From Thermocrinis albus DSM 14484 (GTDB lineage Bacteria > Aquificota > Aquificia > Aquificales > Aquificaceae), in contig NC_013894.1 in the NCBI RefSeq assembly GCF_000025605.1, forward strand, positions 171,529 to 235,528: DNA of 64,000 nt, in the 5' to 3' direction. This document shows positions 26,475 to 53,211 of this stretch, one piece after another; the stretch's first letter is position 1; each line of letters begins with the position of its first letter. A model generated the notes under the pieces. That model saw only the letters and a program-made list of their open reading frames with translations, had not been told where the DNA came from and made no database searches. The position numbers and the translations under genes are program-made.

Positions 26475-27869
26475 ATGTTGGGCATACTGAGACGGAAGCC
26501 AGAGGACAAGCTTATAGAGATACTGGGAAAAGACAAGGTGCTTACTTCATTGGTGGAGAGGAAGCTCTACTCCTACGATGCCACACCCATACCTATAGAG
26601 AGAGCGGTTCCCATGGCGGTGGTGTTTCCGGAAAATCACCATGACGTGGAGAAACTGGTGGAGGTGTGTTATCAGGAAGATATAGCCATCTTTCCGAGAG
26701 GTGCAGGATCAGGACTGACTGGGGGTGCGGTTCCTACCGTGGAACGGGGTGTGGTGGTTTCCTTTGAACGGATGAATCGCTTTAGGGTAGATCTGGATAA
26801 CGCGGTAGCTTACGCTGAACCGGGTGTCGTAACCGCTCAGTTGCAGGAGTATGTAGAGTCCTTGGGACTGTTCTATCCTCCGGACCCTTCTTCCTTCAAA
26901 TACTCCACCATAGGGGGGAACATAGCGGAGAACGCCGGTGGACCCAGATGTCTCAAGTACGGTGTCACGAGAGAGTACGTGTTAGGCCTTACGGCCGTCA
27001 TAAAGGAGGGGAAAACGGTAAAGACAGGTGGCCCTGTGATAAAGGACGTAGCCGGTTATGACATCACCAGACTACTGGTAGGTTCGGAAGGCACGTTAGG
27101 ACTCATCACAGAGGCTGTTTTGAAACTCATCCCTAAGCCAAGGGCGAGACTGACTGCTTTAGCTATCTTTCACAACCTGGAAGATGTAGGACATGCGGTC
27201 ACCAAAATCTTCACGTCGGGAGTTTTTCCCTCTGCTCTTGAGTTTATGGACAAGAACGCCATAAGGGCGGTGGAAGAGTTCAAACCGGTGGGACTACCCA
27301 AAGACGCGGAAGCGGTCCTCCTCATAGAGGTGGACGGCACACCTCAGAGCGTGCAGGAAGACATAAAGCTGGTAAAAGAGCTGTTAGAAGGCATGAAGGT
27401 TAAGGTGGAAACGGCCAGTACCGAGGAAGAAGCTCAGAAGCTGTGGACAGCTAGGAAAAACTTAGGTCCTGCTCTCGGAAATCTCAAAACAGGAAAGATA
27501 AACGAAGATATAGTGGTCCCACGCTCCACCCTTCACCAGGTGATACCCAAGGTGAGAGAGATAGCCCAAAAGTACCAGCTTATGGTAGCGGTGTTTGGAC
27601 ACATAGGTGATGGAAACCTCCACGTGAACTTTCTCTATGACAAAGCTAACAGAGAAGAAGAGGAAAGGGCAGAACAAGCTGTGGATGAGGTTTTTGAGAT
27701 GACGCTGGCCTTTGGTGGATCCATAACAGGAGAACACGGTGTGGGACTCACGAAAAGAAAGTTTTTGAAGTGGCAGATGGGAGATGTTGGTTACGAGCTA
27801 CTGAAGTCTATAAAGTCTGTTTTTGATCCCAAAAACCTCTTCAATCCCGGTAAGATGCTGGAAGTATAG
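26475..27869 (+). CDS. FAD-linked glycolate/D-lactate oxidase subunit (GlcD-like)
   Basis: Flavoprotein of the VAO/PCMH superfamily that oxidises a 2-hydroxyacid. FAD-contact motifs include PRGAGSGLTGGAVP, the NIAENAGGPRCLKYG segment and the C-terminal GHIGDGNLHVNF and GEHGVGLTKRKF metal/substrate region. The length of 464 residues is standard for GlcD or D-lactate dehydrogenase (cytochrome type). No GlcE or GlcF partner gene follows. Pairing with the divergent hydroxyacid dehydrogenase suggests interconversion of the same compound with different electron acceptors. Confidence 0.9.
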   Translation: MLGILRRKPEDKLIEILGKDKVLTSLVERKLYSYDATPIPIERAVPMAVVFPENHHDVEKLVEVCYQEDIAIFPRGAGSGLTGGAVPTVERGVVVSFERMNRFRVDLDNAVAYAEPGVVTAQLQEYVESLGLFYPPDPSSFKYSTIGGNIAENAGGPRCLKYGVTREYVLGLTAVIKEGKTVKTGGPVIKDVAGYDITRLLVGSEGTLGLITEAVLKLIPKPRARLTALAIFHNLEDVGHAVTKIFTSGVFPSALEFMDKNAIRAVEEFKPVGLPKDAEAVLLIEVDGTPQSVQEDIKLVKELLEGMKVKVETASTEEEAQKLWTARKNLGPALGNLKTGKINEDIVVPRSTLHQVIPKVREIAQKYQLMVAVFGHIGDGNLHVNFLYDKANREEEERAEQAVDEVFEMTLAFGGSITGEHGVGLTKRKFLKWQMGDVGYELLKSIKSVFDPKNLFNPGKMLEV

Positions 27870-43906: not shown

Positions 43907-45079
43907 TTAGTATACCACCAGCTGGTGTGGTACAGGAGGTAGTCTCTTCAGCTTAGCTTCGATAATCTTCTGGGAATACTGTTGGAGGTAGTAGGCTATA
44001 GTCTCCACCCTTATCCTCACACTTCCCGAAGGTTTTGTCTCGTCAAGCTCACCAAACTTGAAGAACATAGTTCCCGAACTTTCCACAATACGCTGAACGG
44101 GGGTGAAGGTAGGTTGGTCCATGCCGCACTCGTAGGAGGAGAGCCTTATCACGGCGGTTATCCAGGGAAGTCTACTACCGAACTTGGCACCCCATATGAT
44201 CTCGTTGGTATTAGAACTGTACGAAGAAGTCCACACATCGGAGATGTCAAGGGGATGTCTTATTCTTCCTTCTTCCACATCTTTTCCAAAGAGCCAGTTC
44301 AAAAGCCAATCCTCCAGCGGTAGGTAGTTGTACCATAACACCGGATATCCCAGTAGCTGAAATTCTGCATCTATCTCATGGCCTATACCCGGATCCATGT
44401 GGTACGGTCTTGCTAAGATCAGAACGGCGGGCCTGTTGTTGGTGGTGCACCATCTTATAATTTTCAAGGAAAGCTCTCTGGCCTTTCTGTCAAACTCCCT
44501 AAGGGCTTTGAAGCCTTCCTCAACGGCCAGCTTAACTTCCTCCATCGTTATATCCTCAATTGCAGAACGTAGGGCTCGGTAAAGATACAGGGGCAGAAGT
44601 TCTGGCTCACCGAAGGGGACGAAGGGAGATACGTACCTTATTCCTCTCTTTGCAAACTCATCACCCTCCCGTAGAAAGCCTGCCTTTATGTTCTCAGGTG
44701 CCATCATCACCCTCGTACAGGACAAGGTGTCCTGAACATAACCCTTTAGGAAGGAGGGAAGGGAGTATATCATGGGGACCACCAGTAAGTTTATGTCCTT
44801 ATGAAGTAACTCTCCTATATGTCCGGCAAGGGCTTTTACCGGATAACAGCTGTCCATCGTTACTCTACCTTTACCGTAGGTTCTGTACTGCTCCTCCGAA
44901 GTCTCCGAGCTGAAGACCACCTTACCCACTCCAAGACTCTGGAAAAAGGCTGTCCAGAAAGGTGCTGTTCCCCACACGTTCAGGAACCTGGGTATACCTA
45001 CCTTAACCCACTCCCTGCTTTTCCTTTCTGTACCTGAAGGCCTCCTTTTTAACAAAGTGAGCGACGTTAGGAAACTCAT
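43907..45079 (-). CDS. DUF2229-type dehydratase-activation protein (split activase module)
   Basis: Matches the DUF2229 module that follows two BadF/BadG ATPase domains in the giant single-chain activase/dehydratase proteins: KVGIPRFLNVWGTAPFWTAFF, then MDSCYPVKALAGHIGELL with a conserved Cys, VVPMIYSLPSF, and VLILARPYHMDPGIGHEIDAEF. The role is probably as a scaffold or iron-sulfur component of a 2-hydroxyacyl-CoA dehydratase-like system; no substrate is known. The start is problematic: the module begins at KVGIPRF (near 45004), right at the stop of the preceding gene in the +1 frame, but the nearest start codons are TTG 45055 and ATG 45079, inside the upstream gene. Internal initiation or frameshifting are both possible. 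Confidence 0.78.
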   Translation of the reverse strand: MSFLTSLTLLKRRPSGTERKSREWVKVGIPRFLNVWGTAPFWTAFFQSLGVGKVVFSSETSEEQYRTYGKGRVTMDSCYPVKALAGHIGELLHKDINLLVVPMIYSLPSFLKGYVQDTLSCTRVMMAPENIKAGFLREGDEFAKRGIRYVSPFVPFGEPELLPLYLYRALRSAIEDITMEEVKLAVEEGFKALREFDRKARELSLKIIRWCTTNNRPAVLILARPYHMDPGIGHEIDAEFQLLGYPVLWYNYLPLEDWLLNWLFGKDVEEGRIRHPLDISDVWTSSYSSNTNEIIWGAKFGSRLPWITAVIRLSSYECGMDQPTFTPVQRIVESSGTMFFKFGELDETKPSGSVRIRVETIAYYLQQYSQKIIEAKLKRLPPVPHQLVVY

Positions 45080-47162
45080 TCTGCACCCTCCTCAATCTCT
45101 CTTTTATAACGGCCAGCTCTCTTTCATCCTCCACCAGTCCTTTGGGACATGCGTTACCCACAATTAACCTTATCCATCCTTTTTCGAGAGGTACCTGACT
45201 CCATTCTCTTCCCTCGCCATAACCTACATCTACGTCTATGAAGGTTCTCTGACAATGGATGGGACACCACCTGCAGACGGTACGTGAGTCAGTGGTGGCC
45301 CTGTAGTTGAGTTTCTCTAGAAGGGGGAAGCCACGAAAGTTGCTTTTGTTACCTCTACGGTAATACTCCAGTGCCAGAAGGGCTACACCCAGCGCACCCG
45401 CCTCTCCAGGGAAGGGATGCAGGTACACCTCAGCGTCTGGGACACGGGACGTTATAAAATCCACCTGCGCCTTCACCACCGCCAGATTACGGTGAGTGCC
45501 ACCCTGAAGTATAAACTTTCTGCCCACCTGAGCCAGATTGTTGATGTTTCCCGCATACACCCAAACGTTGAGGGGTAGAACGGCACACAGACCCGCCAGT
45601 ATTTCCTCCGCTTTCCAGCCTTTTCTCTGTTGGTTTACTATGTCGCTCTGAAGGAAAACTCCACATCCCATACTGAAGGATGGTACAGCCTTCGCAGAAA
45701 AAGCCCTATCTGCTACCTCTTCCAGAGGTATCTGGAACCTTTCGGCCACACCCTGCAGGAAAGCCCCGTTTCCTGAAGAACACTGGGAGTTTAACCTGAA
45801 GTCTACAACGGAGCCGTTACGCAGTATCAGGATCTTAACATCCACACCACCCACATCGCATATACAATCAGCATCGGGGAAAAAGTGCAGCCCTGCGGTA
45901 GCATGCGCCACAGTCTCAACCACCGTTACATCAGCACCCAGCACACTTCCCATCAGGTCCTTGCCGTATCCTGTGACACCTAATGCCAGCACTTGAACAT
46001 CGCCCATAAAGGCACGTATCTGACCGAAGATGGAGCGAGCATCCTCTATGGGGTTACCCTTGCTAAGGGTGTAGCAGGTGTAAACTACCTGACCCTCTTC
46101 AGAAAGGCACACAGCCTTAGCACTGGTGGAACCAAAGTCACATCCCACCACTATCTTGTCAACCTTTTTAGGTGTAACACGAGAGAAGCTGCTGCTGTAC
46201 TTCTTAAGAAAACTCTCTAACTCCTTGGGAGACCTCACGAGCCCACCTTTACCTTCCTTCAACTTCTGCTGGTACTGACCTTCCTCCACCCACCAACGGA
46301 GTTTTTCTGTACCCTGATAAACACCTCCTTCCTCTTCCATGGCGGTCAGAACACATCCAAGGGAGGCGTAATACAGAGAGTTTTCGGGAACTACCACCAG
46401 CTCTTCCATCTCCTGATCGCTGAAGTCTCCTACACCTCTCTCTTTCCAAAGTCTCTGTAAATGTACCATCCAAGCCTCCCTCAGGCCTCTGAAGAAGAGA
46501 TTAGGGCCCCCCAACAGCAACACCTTAGGATAAGGTGTGTTACCTTTTGTAAGCTGCGTAAGGTTTTGGTAAACTACAGCGTCAAAGAGGGAAGCCATAA
46601 CTTCTTCTACCGGCACACCCGCCTTTATGAGGGTGTTCACATCTGCCTCTGCAAAGATACCACACTTGGAACTCACCCTGTGAATACTGTAACCTTTGTA
46701 TCCCATATACATAAGTTTCTCAGGGGGAATACCCAGTTTTCTCGCCGTTTTCTCTATAAAGGTACCTGTCCCTCCTGCGCAGGCGTTCTGCATAACCACC
46801 TGTTTCGTCCTTCTTCCGTCTATTTCCCTTATGAAAACCGCCTTCATATCCTCACCACCTATCTCGCTGACGAACCTAACATCAGGATGGAGCTTCTCCA
46901 CCGCTGTAGAAACCGCCACAACTTCCTGCAGAAACCTGCCCCCCACCAAGGTGTGTATGAAACTCGCCCCAGAGCCTGTAAAATAGACCCTGTCCTTACC
47001 AGGACTGAGATGGTATTTCTCTTCCAACCTAATTAAGAACTCCAAAACCTTCTCTGCAGTGTGAGTGTTATGGCGTTCGTAAGCTTTATCCAAGATGTTA
47101 CCGTTGTCGTCCACGAGGACATACTTACATGTGGTACTTCCCACATCTATACCCACTATCAT
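45003..47162 (-). CDS. Tandem BadF/BadG-type acyl-CoA dehydratase activase (ASKHA ATPase)
   Basis: Predicted ATP-driven electron injector. Two ASKHA ATPase domains are fused: the first (residues 1-280) begins IVGIDVGSTTCKYVL with cluster ligands C128 in QNACAGGTGTF and C167 in SSKCGIFAE; the second (residues 335-590) begins VVGCDFGSTSAKAVC, with C461 in NSQCSSGNGAF and C500 in FSMGCGVF. Thus the cluster-binding cysteines occur in both halves. The C-terminus (CRWCPIHCQRTF and CPKGL, residues ~635-680) is Cys-rich and may hold another metal centre. In fermenting bacteria such activators reduce 2-hydroxyacyl-CoA dehydratases, benzoyl-CoA reductase or double-cubane-cluster proteins. It overlaps the previous gene by ATGA and the next by frame-shifted overlap. 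Confidence 0.85.
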   Translation of the reverse strand: MIVGIDVGSTTCKYVLVDDNGNILDKAYERHNTHTAEKVLEFLIRLEEKYHLSPGKDRVYFTGSGASFIHTLVGGRFLQEVVAVSTAVEKLHPDVRFVSEIGGEDMKAVFIREIDGRRTKQVVMQNACAGGTGTFIEKTARKLGIPPEKLMYMGYKGYSIHRVSSKCGIFAEADVNTLIKAGVPVEEVMASLFDAVVYQNLTQLTKGNTPYPKVLLLGGPNLFFRGLREAWMVHLQRLWKERGVGDFSDQEMEELVVVPENSLYYASLGCVLTAMEEEGGVYQGTEKLRWWVEEGQYQQKLKEGKGGLVRSPKELESFLKKYSSSFSRVTPKKVDKIVVGCDFGSTSAKAVCLSEEGQVVYTCYTLSKGNPIEDARSIFGQIRAFMGDVQVLALGVTGYGKDLMGSVLGADVTVVETVAHATAGLHFFPDADCICDVGGVDVKILILRNGSVVDFRLNSQCSSGNGAFLQGVAERFQIPLEEVADRAFSAKAVPSFSMGCGVFLQSDIVNQQRKGWKAEEILAGLCAVLPLNVWVYAGNINNLAQVGRKFILQGGTHRNLAVVKAQVDFITSRVPDAEVYLHPFPGEAGALGVALLALEYYRRGNKSNFRGFPLLEKLNYRATTDSRTVCRWCPIHCQRTFIDVDVGYGEGREWSQVPLEKGWIRLIVGNACPKGLVEDERELAVIKERLRRVQNEFPNVAHFVKKEAFRYRKEKQGVG

Positions 47163-48670
47163 CTTCTACCCCTCATAAGTTGTGCCACGTGATACACGTA
47201 ATTGGCAGCTGTCCCAACAAAACCGTAACGAGGTACGTGATAGGTGGCTCTCCTTATATGAGGGTTATCCTCCTCAAATTCCCTGATCCTCTCCAAGGTA
47301 AGACCAGTCATCTCCAACACTTGGTAAAACTCCTCCTTAGCTCTTTTCTTAGCCTCCGTGAGCACCATCTGACAACGGGAGAGAGCGTGGACCTCTGCGT
47401 CACCTTTTACCTCTATGGGTGCATAGAGCAGGTGAGGATAATCAGCCAAAACCTTTGCCATGGCACCCACCGACATAGTGTTGGGCAAACATCCGTAAGG
47501 TGACAGTTCGCATATCATATGAGCCTGTTTGTGTTTTAGAGCGTACAGAGCCTTACCTATCAGCATGTGTCCTTCACCACCTGTGAGGCGGTAATGAAAG
47601 TAAGGTTCCGCCAAACGGCGCAGCTCTCTCTGGGAAGGCAGAGGGTTTGGAATGTTTCCAAGAGCCTTTCGGAGTCTGTCGTAAGTTCTTCTATAAAGAT
47701 AGGCCACCAAAGTTGCCACCGTCTTCTTGAGGAAATAACCCTTCACGAAGGGTTTCGCATCCTCTAGCTTAAAGATCTCCATATGAATCAGATAATCCAT
47801 CCACACGGCTACAGGCGGAGGTATGACCTCAGCCCCCTCCCTCTCCAACCATCTTTTTATATTGTAGTTACCTTCACCTTCGTGGGTCTGAAGCCAGAAC
47901 TCTCCCGTTATCTTCACCTTTGGTTTGGGTTGGAGTCTGTCCACCTCCACCTCGTCCCAAAGCTTCTTAACCTCTTTCAAAGCCTTTGTAAAGTAATCGG
48001 TAAACAGATGCCACAGAAGATTTCCCCACTTTTTACCCCTCAAAGGTCTGTTTTTGAGGGCCTCGTAGAGGATTTGGATGCTCTCCTCCACCACCTTATC
48101 GGTCTTTCCCTGCTCCTTTTCGTAAGGTCTCGTGCTGTACTCCATATCGGTTATGAGATCTCCCAAGAACATACCCATGAAGAGTCCCAGCGTCAGGGGC
48201 GTGTTTATCTCCAGACCACCCCCTTCCACCGCCTGCTCCATACGCATAAGATCCAACAGGTACATTCTGAACTCTCTCAGATTAAGTCCCTCAAGGACCC
48301 TCTCGTAGGATTCATGATACTGCCCGAACCTGCAGGGCCCACAAGCACCTACAGTGACAAAAACGTAGTTCTCCTTCACCCCATCTTCCCCTTCTTCTTT
48401 CTTAAGAGTTTCCAGAGTTCTTGCCAAGTTACCCGCTGTAAAAGTGGTGGGGCAGCACGCACCTACATCTACAAATTCCTTACCTATATCCAAATCCTTC
48501 CTCTCTATCTGAGGTAACGGCTTAGCTCTATAGCCCATATTCTCAAGAGCTCCCTGCAGTAATCTCTCGTGCTTCCAGGTAAGACCTCCGTACAGAAGGG
48601 TAACCTTGGATCTCTCCTCCTTCCTGAAAGGCCTTGGTCTGTATGCCAGATAATCCTGCTGTCCTCTCAT
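47159..48670 (-). CDS. 2-hydroxyacyl-CoA dehydratase-like iron-sulfur component (split from giant activase)
   Basis: 503-residue cytosolic protein resembling the C-terminal module of giant activase/dehydratase proteins. The key elements are VGACCPTTFTAGNL (C72, C73), VGACGPCRFGQYHESYE (C110, C113), and CELSPYGCLPNT (about C391 and C398), which look like iron-sulfur ligands. It lies first in the operon, followed by the tandem activase and the DUF2229 protein, so the order is permuted relative to the fused homologues. The ATG at 48670 has the purine-rich GGGGGAGAG upstream and a promoter with an FNR/CRP-type palindrome at 48726-48739. The substrate is unknown; no CoA-transferase or other dehydratase subunit is nearby. 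Confidence 0.78.
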   Translation of the reverse strand: MRGQQDYLAYRPRPFRKEERSKVTLLYGGLTWKHERLLQGALENMGYRAKPLPQIERKDLDIGKEFVDVGACCPTTFTAGNLARTLETLKKEEGEDGVKENYVFVTVGACGPCRFGQYHESYERVLEGLNLREFRMYLLDLMRMEQAVEGGGLEINTPLTLGLFMGMFLGDLITDMEYSTRPYEKEQGKTDKVVEESIQILYEALKNRPLRGKKWGNLLWHLFTDYFTKALKEVKKLWDEVEVDRLQPKPKVKITGEFWLQTHEGEGNYNIKRWLEREGAEVIPPPVAVWMDYLIHMEIFKLEDAKPFVKGYFLKKTVATLVAYLYRRTYDRLRKALGNIPNPLPSQRELRRLAEPYFHYRLTGGEGHMLIGKALYALKHKQAHMICELSPYGCLPNTMSVGAMAKVLADYPHLLYAPIEVKGDAEVHALSRCQMVLTEAKKRAKEEFYQVLEMTGLTLERIREFEEDNPHIRRATYHVPRYGFVGTAANYVYHVAQLMRGRR

Positions 48671-48697
48671 GACTCTCCCCCTGACGTTTTTACCATA

Positions 48698-48739
48698 AAT
48701 TTACCGGGTGTTGGAGGGATGTAAGATGATTTTAATCAT
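48698..48739 (-). promoter_or_regulatory. Class II FNR/CRP-type promoter of the dehydratase/activase operon
   Basis: ATGAT-TTTA-ATCAT (48726-48739) matches the FNR/CRP-family half-site pattern TGAT-N4-ATCA. The -10 box TAAATT (48703-48698) predicts a start at about 48691, putting the palindrome centre at exactly -41.5, the class II activator position. There is no good -35 box, as expected for activator-dependent promoters. The palindrome overlaps the last codons of the small ORF after feoB. Confidence 0.6.
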
Positions 48740-48813
48740 TCACAGCAACGTCTCCTTTTAAAGAGGAAAACCAGAATCAGTAGGGCTGTCACAGAGATAA
48801 CAAGATACTCCAT
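48736..48813 (-). CDS. Tiny membrane protein after feoB, FeoB-associated Cys-rich type
   Basis: A 25-residue ORF starting inside the 3' end of feoB. It has one hydrophobic helix (residues 3-17), then a basic Arg-rich stop-transfer (FKRRR) and a terminal CCE. This is the layout of FeoB-associated Cys-rich membrane proteins, though shorter than usual (40-60 residues). It begins with ATG, has AGGA about 10 nt upstream, and overlaps feoB by 25 nt. It could be chance; the class assignment is inference. Confidence 0.4.
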   Translation of the reverse strand: MEYLVISVTALLILVFLFKRRRCCE

Positions 48814-50720
48814 AGCCTGTAGATTCCTACACCCGCCATCCAAGCAATCAAAAAGCTGTACGCCAGAAAGAGGAGGGCAAATCTACCTCCTGCTTCTCTT
48901 TTCAACACAGAAAAGGTTCCCAAACAGGACATATAGAGGAGCATAAACACCATAAAGGCCAAAGCCGTGGGAGGATCCATCACACGGGACACCGCTTGTC
49001 TCAGTGGAGAGTGTTCCTCCTTCACTTCAAAGACTTTGGGGACAGGACTCAGGAGGTTTCTCCCGGCCTCTTTAAAGGCGCTCAACAGTGCCACTCCTTG
49101 TTCCTCAAGAGCTTTCCATGGGTCTTCTAACTCTCTACTTTCTTCTTCCACCGCGTATATGGTGGCCATGGAACCTAACACCACCTCTCTTGCCATAAAA
49201 GCTGGGATGAGAGAGGTGGTTATCCTCCAGTCGTGTATTCCCATAGGTTCAAAGATGGGCAGCAGCACCTTTCCTATGTGAGCGGCCACACTGTCCTCCA
49301 CCTTACTGACTCCTACCGGTAAGTGTAAGAGGGACCACACCACCACCGCCACCGCCAAGATGAGGGTTCCAGCCCTGTAAAGGAAGTCTTTAACGTGTAC
49401 CCATGTGATGCGTAAAAGGAGCTTGAGGGTAGGAAGCCGGTAAGGTGGTAACTCCATAACAAAATGGGTCAAACTTCCCGTGTAAACCAGTTTCTTTAAG
49501 ACAAAACCCGTTACAATAGCTGTCATCACGCCCATCAGATAGAGACCTAGCATAACGAGGACGGGAGATGGAAAGAAGAGGGTTGCAAAAAAGGAGAAAA
49601 CCACCAAGCGTGCAGGACAACTCATGAAAGGTATCATGGCCAGTACCAACATCTTATCTCTTTTGGTATCAAGAGTACGAGTAGCTAAAACAGCAGGCAC
49701 GTTACATCCAAAACCCAGAAGAAGAGGTATCACACCTTTACCGTGAAGACCTATTCTGTGCATAAAACGATCGGTGAGAAAAGCTACCCTTGGTATGTAA
49801 CCGGAAAACTCAAGAAAGGACAGAAGAAAGAACAGAGATGCTATGAGGGGAACAAAGGTTAGTACAAAACCAACTCCACCCACCACAGCTTCCGATAGGA
49901 AACTTCCCCAAAAGCCATTCCCCACATACCTTTTCACCAACGGTCCCAGAAAGTTTTGGAAGAAACCGTCCAGCCAATCCATAAAGGGTGAAGAAACGTC
50001 AAAGGCCACCTTAAAGAGAAGAAACATAACAAAAACAAAGAACACGGGTCCCATTACAGGGTGTAACACTATCCTGTCAAGGGCTTCCGTGATGTCCTGT
50101 GATACGGTAGACCTTCTCTTCACCACTTCCGTGTAGAGGCCGTGGGCAAAACCCAACCTTCTGTCTCTCAGTTCCTGATCCTGGAGAGGAGTTCTCAGGT
50201 AAGGCAATGGGAAGGGGCGGAGGTCACTTTCTATAGCTCTCACTACAGCCTCCAGAAGATCCTTTACACCCTCACCTTTTCTACCGTTGGTCTTCACTAC
50301 AGGTAAGCCTAACAGCTCCTGCATTCTGGAAGTATCTATATCTATACCCAATCTCAGTGCCTCATCCCACATGTTGAGGGCTATCACCATCGGTTTCCCC
50401 AACTCCATGAGTTGTGCCGTTAAGAAGAGATCCCTTTCCATATTGGGTGCTTCTATGACGTTTATGATGAGATCCACTTTCTCCTCTTTCAGGAAATGGT
50501 AGGCTATCTGCTCGTCTTCCGAAACAGGTTCCAAAGTGTATATACCCGGTAGATCTACAAAGGTTATCTCATAATCACCGTAAAAGATCTTTCCCTCCCT
50601 TTTCTCTACCGTGACACCTGGCCAGTTACCCACCCGTAAGGTGGTCCCGGCGATATGGTTGAGAAGACTGGTCTTACCTACGTTAGGGTTGCCCACCAGG
50701 GCAACCAAAACTTTCTTCAT
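48789..50720 (-). CDS. feoB: Ferrous iron transporter FeoB
   Basis: GTP-dependent Fe2+ uptake across the inner membrane. The N-terminal G domain has GNPNVGKT (residues 10-17), DLPGIYTLEPVSEDE and NMWD, followed by the helical spacer and about eight to ten membrane helices with the Gate motifs (GFGCNVPAVLATRT and the SCPARLV segment). At 643 residues it is compact compared with E. coli (773). It is coupled to feoA by a 4-nt overlap. A tiny Cys-containing ORF at its end may be the third Feo component. Confidence 0.96.
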   Translation of the reverse strand: MKKVLVALVGNPNVGKTSLLNHIAGTTLRVGNWPGVTVEKREGKIFYGDYEITFVDLPGIYTLEPVSEDEQIAYHFLKEEKVDLIINVIEAPNMERDLFLTAQLMELGKPMVIALNMWDEALRLGIDIDTSRMQELLGLPVVKTNGRKGEGVKDLLEAVVRAIESDLRPFPLPYLRTPLQDQELRDRRLGFAHGLYTEVVKRRSTVSQDITEALDRIVLHPVMGPVFFVFVMFLLFKVAFDVSSPFMDWLDGFFQNFLGPLVKRYVGNGFWGSFLSEAVVGGVGFVLTFVPLIASLFFLLSFLEFSGYIPRVAFLTDRFMHRIGLHGKGVIPLLLGFGCNVPAVLATRTLDTKRDKMLVLAMIPFMSCPARLVVFSFFATLFFPSPVLVMLGLYLMGVMTAIVTGFVLKKLVYTGSLTHFVMELPPYRLPTLKLLLRITWVHVKDFLYRAGTLILAVAVVVWSLLHLPVGVSKVEDSVAAHIGKVLLPIFEPMGIHDWRITTSLIPAFMAREVVLGSMATIYAVEEESRELEDPWKALEEQGVALLSAFKEAGRNLLSPVPKVFEVKEEHSPLRQAVSRVMDPPTALAFMVFMLLYMSCLGTFSVLKREAGGRFALLFLAYSFLIAWMAGVGIYRLWSILLSL

Positions 50721-50929: not shown

Positions 50930-50949
50930 CCTTGCCTCCTGTGGATATT

Positions 50950-50977
50950 AATATACAATCTCAAGATAATCTGTCAA
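50950..50977 (-). promoter_or_regulatory. feoAB promoter
   Basis: TTGACA (50977-50972), 16-nt spacer, TATATT (50955-50950), then a short leader with AGGAGG before feoA. It is the best -35 match in the window. A Fur-type site is expected from biology but I cannot see an unambiguous one. Confidence 0.68.
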
Positions 50978-51030
50978 GGGGTGACCTAAGTCATAATGGG
51001 AAGCTCTTTGGACTCATAAAATTTAAAGGC

Positions 51031-53211
51031 ATGTGGCGTGTGGTATTTACGGGAGAGAGGCCCCACTACGAGAACGTCGCCCTAGACAGGATAATGTTGG
51101 ATCTGAGAGGAGAGGGAAAGATACCCAACACTATAAGGTTCCTCAAGTTCAAGCCTGAATGTGTGCTGATAGGTTTTCATCAAGCTGTGGAGCAAGAGGT
51201 GAGATTGGAGTATGTGGAGAGAGAAGGTATACAGGTAGGAAGGAGGATAACGGGAGGAGGAGCCATTTACTTTGACGAAACCCAGATAGGGTGGGAGATC
51301 ATAGCAGACAGAGAAAGTGTGGGAGGCGGAAACTTTGAAGAGATAACAGCAAAGATATGCAGAGGTATAGCTAGAGGGCTCCGAAAGCTGGGTATACCCG
51401 CCCAGTTTAGGCCGCGTAACGACATAGAGGTGGATGGTAGGAAGATTTCCGGAACAGGTGGTGTCTTTGAAGGTAACGCCTTTCTTTATCAGGGAACCCT
51501 TCTCATGGACTTCAACGTGGAAAGGATGCTCAAATCTCTCCAGATACCTGTGGAGAAACTCACCTCTAAAGGAATAAAGGCCGCCGAGGACAGGGTAGAG
51601 TGGGTAAAAAGATACCTGGGATATCTGCCCTCTGACGAGAAGATTTTCTCCGCCTTGTTGGAGGGACTTAAGGAGGAACTGGGCATAGAGTATAACTGGG
51701 GACATCTCACGCCGGAAGAGGAAAGTCTTTTGGAGAAGAACAAGGAGTACTACAGGAGTGAAGACTGGGTTTTTCACATAAGGAGAGCTCCCCACCAGAT
51801 GCAGAGCCTTTACGGTATCTACAGGTGTCCCGGTGGTACCTTCCGTGTGTCGGTGCGCGTTGATCTAGAGAGAAACATCTTACAGCAGGTGAACATAAAC
51901 GGAGACTTTTTCGTAAATCCCAGAAGACTGGTCTACGATTTGGAAGCGTACCTCAAGCACACTCCCCTTCAGGATGTGAAGACTAAGGTGGAGGAGTTCT
52001 TCAGCCAACGTCAGTGGGAGGGTCTTAACCTGACGGTGAACGACTTTGTGGAAGCTATTCTGTTTCCCATCAGAAAGGCTGAGGGACTGCAGCTGGGAAT
52101 AGATAAAAAAAAACTTAACAACATAATAGCCAGCATAGGAGATGGCCTTATAGAGAACCTCCGTAAAGCAAAGGTGATGCTCCTCCCTTACTGTGCAAAA
52201 CCCCGCTGGTGTGATTACCGACATCTAGATGACTGCGGTGAGTGTGGAGGATGCACGGTAGGAGACGCTTATAGGTTAGCCTACCAGAAGGGTATGATAC
52301 CTATTACTATAACTTCCTTTGAACTGTTACGGGACACACTTCTATGGTGCGCCAGAAACGGATACACCTACATAGGTCACTGTTGTTACGAGTTTTTCGA
52401 AAAACGGTACGAGATATTCCAAAGGGCGGCACAGGAAGGAGCCAAGGGGGTTCTGTTGGATATTGTGGGTACCACTTGTTACAGTTTAGGAGTAGAGGAA
52501 GAGGAAAAAGCTTATCACGGTGAGTTCACTGTGGAGTTAGACCTCCTTAAAGAAGAGCTGTACAAAACGTTAAAGGTAAAGGAAGATGTGTGGGAGAAAC
52601 CCAAGAGACAGAGCAGAACCTTCGATTTTTCCCCATACTTCCGTGACTTTGTTCCTACCTATTACAAGAAACCTAAGGCTGTGCCATCACCTGAGGAAGA
52701 CAGAACGAGAACAGCTGTTCAAGAAGAGGTCTTTCTCGGCGAAGCTACCATAGAAGACAGAATAGTTAGCTCTTCTGAAGCCCTGGCTACCCTTGCCGAC
52801 TGGATAAAGAGAGCAGAGAGACCAACCCTTGTGGTTGGTCCCCTTTTGGTGTGGGATTGGGGAGAGGAAGAACTACGACAGAAGGCTGAGGCTCTGCGTA
52901 CACTGATAGAGAAGATACCCCACCTTAAGGTAAAGGTGCTGCCCGATTACAGACCCAAGTTGGGTAAGTACGACCCATCGGTGGAGATGGATCCGCCCAA
53001 CCCTCATCAATGCGTGCTTCACGACAGAAACGATCTTACACTGCTGGTGGGTGTTCACTGTTACCGTACCGACTTTGTTATAAGGCTACTGAGAAAACAC
53101 ACACCCACCCGTGTTGTTACCCTCTGTGGACTTTACGGACATCCAACCGCTCACCTCTCGGTGAGCTTCACTGACGCAGAAAAGCTGTATTATCTTTCTC
53201 GACTACTCTGA
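51031..53211 (+). CDS. Lipoate-protein ligase fused to DUF116 and a CODH-epsilon-like domain
   Basis: Three domains in 726 residues. Residues 1-240 form a lipoate ligase: MWRVVFTGERPHYENVALD, RRITGGGA at 71-78 and GRKISGTGG at 137-144. Residues 245-315 form a LplA-C-type accessory domain. Residues 380-500 form a DUF116 Cys-rich domain (C388, C394, C402, C405, C408, C451, C452, C483), probably binding iron-sulfur. Residues 595-726 resemble the epsilon/beta accessory subunit of CO dehydrogenase. The start at 51031 matches the ligase N-terminus; the frame is open to 50932. Its substrate may be a glycine-cleavage H protein or a lipoate-binding protein of the sulfur-oxidising sHdr system; this is inference. 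Its 3' end overlaps the convergent GT39 gene. Confidence 0.85.
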   Translation: MWRVVFTGERPHYENVALDRIMLDLRGEGKIPNTIRFLKFKPECVLIGFHQAVEQEVRLEYVEREGIQVGRRITGGGAIYFDETQIGWEIIADRESVGGGNFEEITAKICRGIARGLRKLGIPAQFRPRNDIEVDGRKISGTGGVFEGNAFLYQGTLLMDFNVERMLKSLQIPVEKLTSKGIKAAEDRVEWVKRYLGYLPSDEKIFSALLEGLKEELGIEYNWGHLTPEEESLLEKNKEYYRSEDWVFHIRRAPHQMQSLYGIYRCPGGTFRVSVRVDLERNILQQVNINGDFFVNPRRLVYDLEAYLKHTPLQDVKTKVEEFFSQRQWEGLNLTVNDFVEAILFPIRKAEGLQLGIDKKKLNNIIASIGDGLIENLRKAKVMLLPYCAKPRWCDYRHLDDCGECGGCTVGDAYRLAYQKGMIPITITSFELLRDTLLWCARNGYTYIGHCCYEFFEKRYEIFQRAAQEGAKGVLLDIVGTTCYSLGVEEEEKAYHGEFTVELDLLKEELYKTLKVKEDVWEKPKRQSRTFDFSPYFRDFVPTYYKKPKAVPSPEEDRTRTAVQEEVFLGEATIEDRIVSSSEALATLADWIKRAERPTLVVGPLLVWDWGEEELRQKAEALRTLIEKIPHLKVKVLPDYRPKLGKYDPSVEMDPPNPHQCVLHDRNDLTLLVGVHCYRTDFVIRLLRKHTPTRVVTLCGLYGHPTAHLSVSFTDAEKLYYLSRLL

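Follow-up and report, generated by a model that had tools for sequence, protein, structure and literature searches.

The window analysed here, a stretch of 64,000 nucleotides from Thermocrinis albus, contains three overlapping genes, and the question they raise is which reaction their products perform in a microaerophile. The original prediction placed the genes in the superfamily of ATP-driven, low-potential iron-sulfur reductases and recognised their correspondence to a fused chain of about 1400 residues in other bacteria, both of which hold, and proposed an undescribed reduction linked to autotrophy or anaerobiosis. We arrive at a different function: the three genes very probably specify a split version of the PlsA-PlsR/Ger enzymes, a glycerol ester reductase of three subunits that produces the alkyl (mono)ether phospholipids found in T. 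albus.

The Aquificales are hyperthermophiles whose straight-chain glycerol ether lipids are used as hot-spring biomarkers, and ether lipids were found in the group more than 20 years ago. Among the papers that our literature search covered, none assigned a gene to ether-lipid synthesis in the Aquificales. Nor did it find the term glycerol ester reductase paired with Aquificales or Aquificota, the main Ger paper (Sahonero-Canavesi et al. 2022) lying outside its scope.

The three-gene locus

The genes, here called A, B and C, lie on the minus strand as originally described (Table 1), in a species for which the complete genome of strain HI 11/12 comprises 1,500,577 bp (PMC3035279). By their ORF coordinates A shares 4 nt with B, and B shares 77 nt with C. 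A B/C overlap of 74-77 nt recurs in other Thermocrinis and in genus g11, and the N-terminus of C (MxFLxxLxLLKRR) is retained even where C is detached or does not overlap B. All three are genuine, intact genes that have been conserved.

Table 1. Coordinates of the modules and associated features of the locus (positions in the window)
Feature	Position	Strand	Basis
Module A, PlsR-like protein, 503 aa, BCR/HAD/double-cubane fold	47159..48670	-	ORFs, profiles, model
Module B, tandem ASKHA (BcrAD/BadFG) ATPase-activase, 719 aa, with C-terminal four-Cys tail	45003..47162	-	
Module C, DUF2229 protein, 390 aa	43907..45079	-	Pfam, profiles, model
First activase half of B, cluster Cys C128 and C167 (domain end approximate)	46338..47162	-	
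Second activase half of B, residues 339-597, cluster Cys C461 and C500	45372..46148	-	
Four-Cys tail of B, residues 607-718, CxxCxxxC...C (C630, C633, C637, C672)	45009..45344	-	
B/C overlap, 77 nt	45003..45079	-	
Gap between feoB and A, 118 nt, with GGGGAG ribosome-binding-like sequence directly 5' of the A ATG	48671..48788	-	

The operon is flanked by feoB and the gene for 3-dehydroquinate synthase II, with no adjoining TetR gene. feoB (ferrous iron transport; window positions 48789-50720, minus strand) is the next gene upstream of A and runs in the same direction, and its co-expression with an iron-rich enzyme is possible. No promoter-like match was found on the minus strand of the gap between feoB and A, and a scan for promoters and terminators returned nothing exceeding chance. 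A 759-aa ORF on the plus strand (50932-53211) resembles, by eye, a lipoate-protein ligase in fusion with a DUF116-like domain rich in Cys.

Family assignment of the modules

Pfam identifies two BcrAD_BadFG domains in B (PF01869, 242 bits in total) and one DUF2229 domain in C (PF09989, 162 bits), the latter as originally proposed, and A matches no model in Pfam or NCBIfam. HMMs were built from five PlsA-type proteins only, four of them fused (Listeria, Collinsella, Acetoanaerobium and Haliovirga) and one encoded by two genes (Fusobacterium), with the loci taken from plasmid-filed records. These HMMs score 445 bits against B, 152 bits against C and, with the profile of the last, PlsR-like module, 160 bits against A, and none of 150 shuffled control sequences scored. 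Two features of PlsA/Ger proteins are present: a tandem activase in which each half has its cluster Cys, in B, and a DUF2229 module that follows the activases after a four-Cys linker, with the linker carried on B and DUF2229 on C.

Counting against assignment to this family, the T. albus proteins share little identity with those of plasmalogen type (29-33% for B, 23-29% for C and 19-24% for A), in a comparison that covered relatives other than the characterised Ger proteins of Thermotoga maritima and Desulfatibacillum alkenivorans and PlsAR of C. perfringens. A scan of genome contigs returned an Aquifex-like group but neither T. maritima nor C. perfringens, and the plasmid-filed records served in their place; in the control genome set, T. 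maritima matches both PF01869 and PF09989. DUF2229 was also matched in the control genomes of Thermus composti and Deinobacterium chartae, which belong to aerobic lineages.

The strong match of B to the activator family (TIGR00241, 224 bits, NCBIfam) would also suit a canonical 2-hydroxyacyl-CoA dehydratase and its activator, acting in amino-acid fermentation, as would the fold of C described below. However, true dehydratase activators are single-domain homodimers, no PF06050 (HGD-D) dehydratase subunit is found in A, in C or anywhere in the T. albus genome, and neither A nor C, the latter a DUF2229 protein, matches any dehydratase family in Pfam or NCBIfam. This candidate was rejected for want of a PF06050 protein and is largely refuted, and we regard it as extremely unlikely. 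The class I benzoyl-CoA reductase models TIGR02259, TIGR02261 and TIGR03192 all score far under their curated cut-offs.

Conserved cysteines and predicted folds

Three Cys in A, three in C and eight in B are conserved family-wide. Invariant in 28 of 28 taxa are C461, C500, C630, C633, C637 and C672 of B, C78, C121 and C318 of C, and C72, C113 and C394 of A, and C128 and C167 of B are invariant in all 26 taxa with residues at those positions. The tandem activase and its two Cys pairs had thus been read correctly, but the four-Cys tail motif of B and the three invariant Cys of the DUF2229 module had been overlooked. The tail segment (45009-45344) is missing in ordinary activators, and it may be a site for zinc or for another Fe-S cluster.

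For A, the pair originally placed at C391/C398 is in fact C387/C394, and only C72, C113 and C394 are family-wide. C110 is absent from only five of 94 sequences. The combination of C73, C387 and C433 is confined to the Thermocrinis/Hydrogenobacter clade (15 of the 94), where all 15 sequences carry seven Cys (C72, C73, C110, C113, C387, C394 and C433), compared with four Cys at those positions in 74 of 79 sequences outside it. This clade might represent a distinct, microaerophile class of ester-to-ether reductase, in which the seven-Cys A holds an extra or non-standard Fe-S cluster missing in PlsA and known Ger and serves as an electron store so that reduction can run fully to the alkyl ether, a proposal that we consider unlikely.

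Neither A nor C has a relative of solved structure in a PDB sequence search, profiles included, so a fold search was required. The AlphaFold2 models (pLDDT 87.0 and pTM 0.89 for A, pLDDT 86.5 and pTM 0.86 for C) gave matches with modest TM-scores of about 0.4-0.5, A to the double-cubane protein (DCCP) and BzdNO, and C to the beta subunit of 2-hydroxyisocaproyl-CoA dehydratase, DCCP and BzdNO. Read from DSSP strings without superposition, the conserved Cys precede helices in both models, and C95, C128 and C380 of BzdO precede helices likewise (PMC11971306). In A, a DCCP-like fold is joined to the seven Cys of the Thermocrinis/Hydrogenobacter clade, and no Cys is apparent at positions matching C36, C263 and C293 of the double-cubane BzdN, as judged from the DSSP strings and a published ligand list, without coordinates (PMC11971306). 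HHalign detects no sequence homology between A and C, though both adopt the BCR/HAD fold. From the folds and the placement of Cys before helices, A and C probably form a dehydratase-type pseudo-heterodimer, with B as its ATP-driven electron donor.

Gene orders and co-inheritance

A gene-order survey of 80 named loci and five plasmid-filed loci found the modules as one chain, B+C+A (for instance in Listeria, Haliovirga and Collinsella), as two genes, either B+C followed by A (for instance in Planctomycetota, Chloroflexota and Fusobacterium) or A followed by B+C (41 loci, mostly Acidobacteria). Three-gene forms exist as well, in the orders B-C'-A and A-B-C. The T. albus arrangement, described originally as permuted, is so relative to the fused chain, but its A-first order is shared with the 41 two-gene loci. 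Within the Aquificota, Thermocrinis, Hydrogenobacter-like and g6 genomes have A-B-C, or A-B with C elsewhere, whereas Aquifex-type genomes (L042 and others) have B-C'-A, the order of the fused chain, and in genus g3, of the Aquifex type, A is on a separate contig. The four-Cys segment lies at the N-terminus of C' in the Aquifex type and at the end of B (607-718) in T. albus, a difference that marks the site at which the ancestral chain was cut. In the tree the two Aquificota forms are separate, fully supported clades, and the T. albus proteins sit on a long branch apart from the plasmalogen-type group. In one locus (L044, 5596-6990, plus strand) a DUF2229 gene is inverted between A and B with boundaries exactly as in the collinear form, which is either a real inversion or an assembly artefact.

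Homologues of A occur in 24 of 61 Aquificota relatives and those of C in 23 of 61, with B in the same set. Four genomes at least 90% complete from otherwise positive genera (G004, G020, G025 and G032) have none of the three, and in six others C or A is unlinked yet present (G033, G027, G012, G019, G008 and G017). We take G033 to be Hydrogenobacter thermophilus, G003 to be T. ruber and G009 to be Aquifex, the last name being backed by a named relative (L082) at 87% identity. The joint gain and loss of A, B and C, unlinked cases included, points to a single functional unit.

The neighbourhood varies between the forms. A TetR gene, 55-60% conserved across genera, lies directly upstream in Aquifex-type and g6 genomes (for instance L042 12631-13170, L040 9469-10068 and L079 4156-4740), and none adjoins the system in Thermocrinis and Hydrogenobacter. 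In Acetoanaerobium and Collinsella the fused gene also has a TetR gene beside it, and in Enterococcus one lies upstream of plsA (PMC9702350). Detached C genes adjoin genes for a CDP-alcohol phosphatidyltransferase (L075), FabF (L074) and a GDPD with AcpS nearby (L077).

Ether lipids of the host and the probable reaction

The polar lipids of T. albus comprise diacyl and monoether glycerols, with C18:0 making up 78.5% of the ether chains (PMC3035279), and those of H. thermophilus include glycerol monoethers but no diether (PMC3111988). Diethers are reported from Aquificaceae including Aquifex and T. ruber (PMC5552659, PMC4339782), and Kaur et al. traced part of the environmental diethers to Aquificales, Hydrogenobaculum and Venenivibrio among them (PMC4339782). 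A possible division of the two Aquificota clades into monoether-only and diether lipids was abandoned on account of T. ruber, a member of the Thermocrinis clade that is listed with diethers (PMC4339782).

Heterologous expression has shown that PlsA/PlsR and Ger reduce a phospholipid ester bond, yielding a vinyl or an alkyl ether (PMC12838417, PMC11150832). plsA is a single ORF in facultative anaerobes and the two genes plsA-plsR in C. perfringens (PMC12838417), Listeria is among the plasmalogen makers with these genes (PMC9702350), and Ger expressed in E. coli yields alkyl ethers (PMC11150832). Taken with the ether lipids of the host, the module homology, Cys conservation, fold, co-inheritance and genomic context lead to an ester-to-ether reductase: A, B and C probably catalyse this reduction, with homology, context and host phenotype in agreement, and the reaction in T. 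albus is probably the known one. The original prediction had named homologues with a single known reaction as what would overturn it, and PlsA/PlsR and Ger largely supply them.

An undescribed low-potential reduction of a CoA ester, small molecule or redox cofactor, tied to autotrophy or anaerobiosis, draws on the fact that the ATP-driven superfamily sharing this fold also acts on CoA esters and small molecules, and on the Cys set in A peculiar to the Thermocrinis/Hydrogenobacter clade. We nevertheless think it improbable: the fused and two-gene relatives, with which the entire module set is shared, are PlsA/PlsR and Ger, enzymes of known reaction (PMC12838417, PMC11150832), the genome encodes no PF06050 dehydratase subunit, gene context and the reported alkyl monoethers of the host favour lipids (PMC3035279), and all sampled relatives of family f3 are without the system.

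If the system is an ester-to-ether reductase, it could be a PlsA-type enzyme forming vinyl ethers (plasmalogens). PlsA and Ger are indistinguishable from sequence alone (PMC13274423, PMC11868695), and two activase halves complete with the four Cys are likewise present in the homologue from Listeria, which is assigned as an orthologue of plsA. Against vinyl ethers, the ethers reported for T. albus and H. thermophilus are glycerol monoethers with saturated or monounsaturated alkyl chains rather than plasmalogens, the two-activase architecture accompanies alkyl-ether Ger enzymes (PMC13274423), and the T. albus proteins stand apart from the plasmalogen-type group in the tree. The product would probably be alkyl, and a vinyl-ether enzyme seems quite improbable. 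It is slightly less probable still that T. albus makes its ethers by another route, AGPS-like or ElbD, with A, B and C doing something else. ElbD or AGPS is used in other bacteria (PMC11868695), but the sole FAD-oxidase_C protein of the genome (window 26475-27869; TIGR00387, 482 bits, under the curated cut-off of 568) is GlcD-like, and AGPS-type synthesis was rejected on this ground.

For the favoured ester-to-ether reductase, a mechanism can be proposed. A low-potential donor, probably ferredoxin, would reduce a [4Fe-4S] cluster held by four Cys of the tandem activase B, and ATP hydrolysis would push the electron onto the A-C pair, the two BCR/HAD-fold subunits, each with a putative three-Cys cluster site. 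One of these sites would then reduce the sn-1 ester carbonyl of the phospholipid via a ketyl-radical-type intermediate, and loss of water with further reduction would give the alkyl ether.

Several observations weigh against this assignment in addition to low identity. Recombinant work with Ger is anaerobic and several PlsA proteins are inactivated by air (PMC11150832, PMC12838417), as against the microaerophily of Thermocrinis, and a homologous Ger2 is inactive in E. coli (PMC11150832). Two of the genomes without the system (G004 and G020) are close relatives, and if Hydrogenobaculum and Venenivibrio are without the genes, another route to diethers exists.

Implications

The locus provides three expressible candidate genes for ether-lipid synthesis in the Aquificales and would extend an anaerobic family of ester-to-ether reductases to oxygen-using chemolithoautotrophs. 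Because A and C are only 19-29% identical to plasmalogen-type proteins, screens with identity cut-offs above 30% could miss such genes. Furthermore, the fused Ger of about 150 kDa forms inclusion bodies (PMC11150832), and a naturally separate three-subunit form may be easier to purify and solve. What is new is a split, reordered form with seven invariant Cys in A.

Comparison with known systems

PlsA-PlsR, encoded by two genes in C. perfringens and fused in Enterococcus, Lactococcus, Bifidobacterium and Listeria, has the same two activases, four-Cys tail, DUF2229 and PlsR-like reductase as T. albus, with the same conserved Cys, and a TetR gene adjoins it in several lineages. The T. albus system differs in its three genes with A first, in an identity of 19-33% by module to the PlsA-type proteins compared, in the additional C73, C110 and C433 of A, and in the alkyl rather than vinyl ethers of its host.

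Ger, known from T. maritima (Tmari_0479) and D. alkenivorans, is a PlsA homologue with two activase domains that converts the sn-1 ester, and in some cases the sn-2 ester, to an alkyl ether, in agreement with the ether type of the T. albus lipids. In contrast to the three genes of T. albus, it is described as one polypeptide (of 159 kDa in D. alkenivorans) from anaerobic hosts, and our literature search found no three-gene Ger or Ger of the Aquificota.

More distantly, the superfamily of class I benzoyl-CoA reductases, 2-hydroxyacyl-CoA dehydratases and DCCP shares the fold of A and C, homology of the activase and Cys at corresponding helix starts, while the substrates of benzoyl-CoA reductase and 2-hydroxyacyl-CoA dehydratase are CoA esters.

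The Aquifex-type system (L042, with relatives in Planctomycetota, Chloroflexota and Acidobacteria) has the modules and Cys of T. albus, with the Aquifex proteins 48% identical for B, 40% for C and 40% for A, but differs in the three-gene B-C'-A order of Aquifex, in the tail carried on C', in having only four Cys in A, and in forming a separate, well-supported clade.
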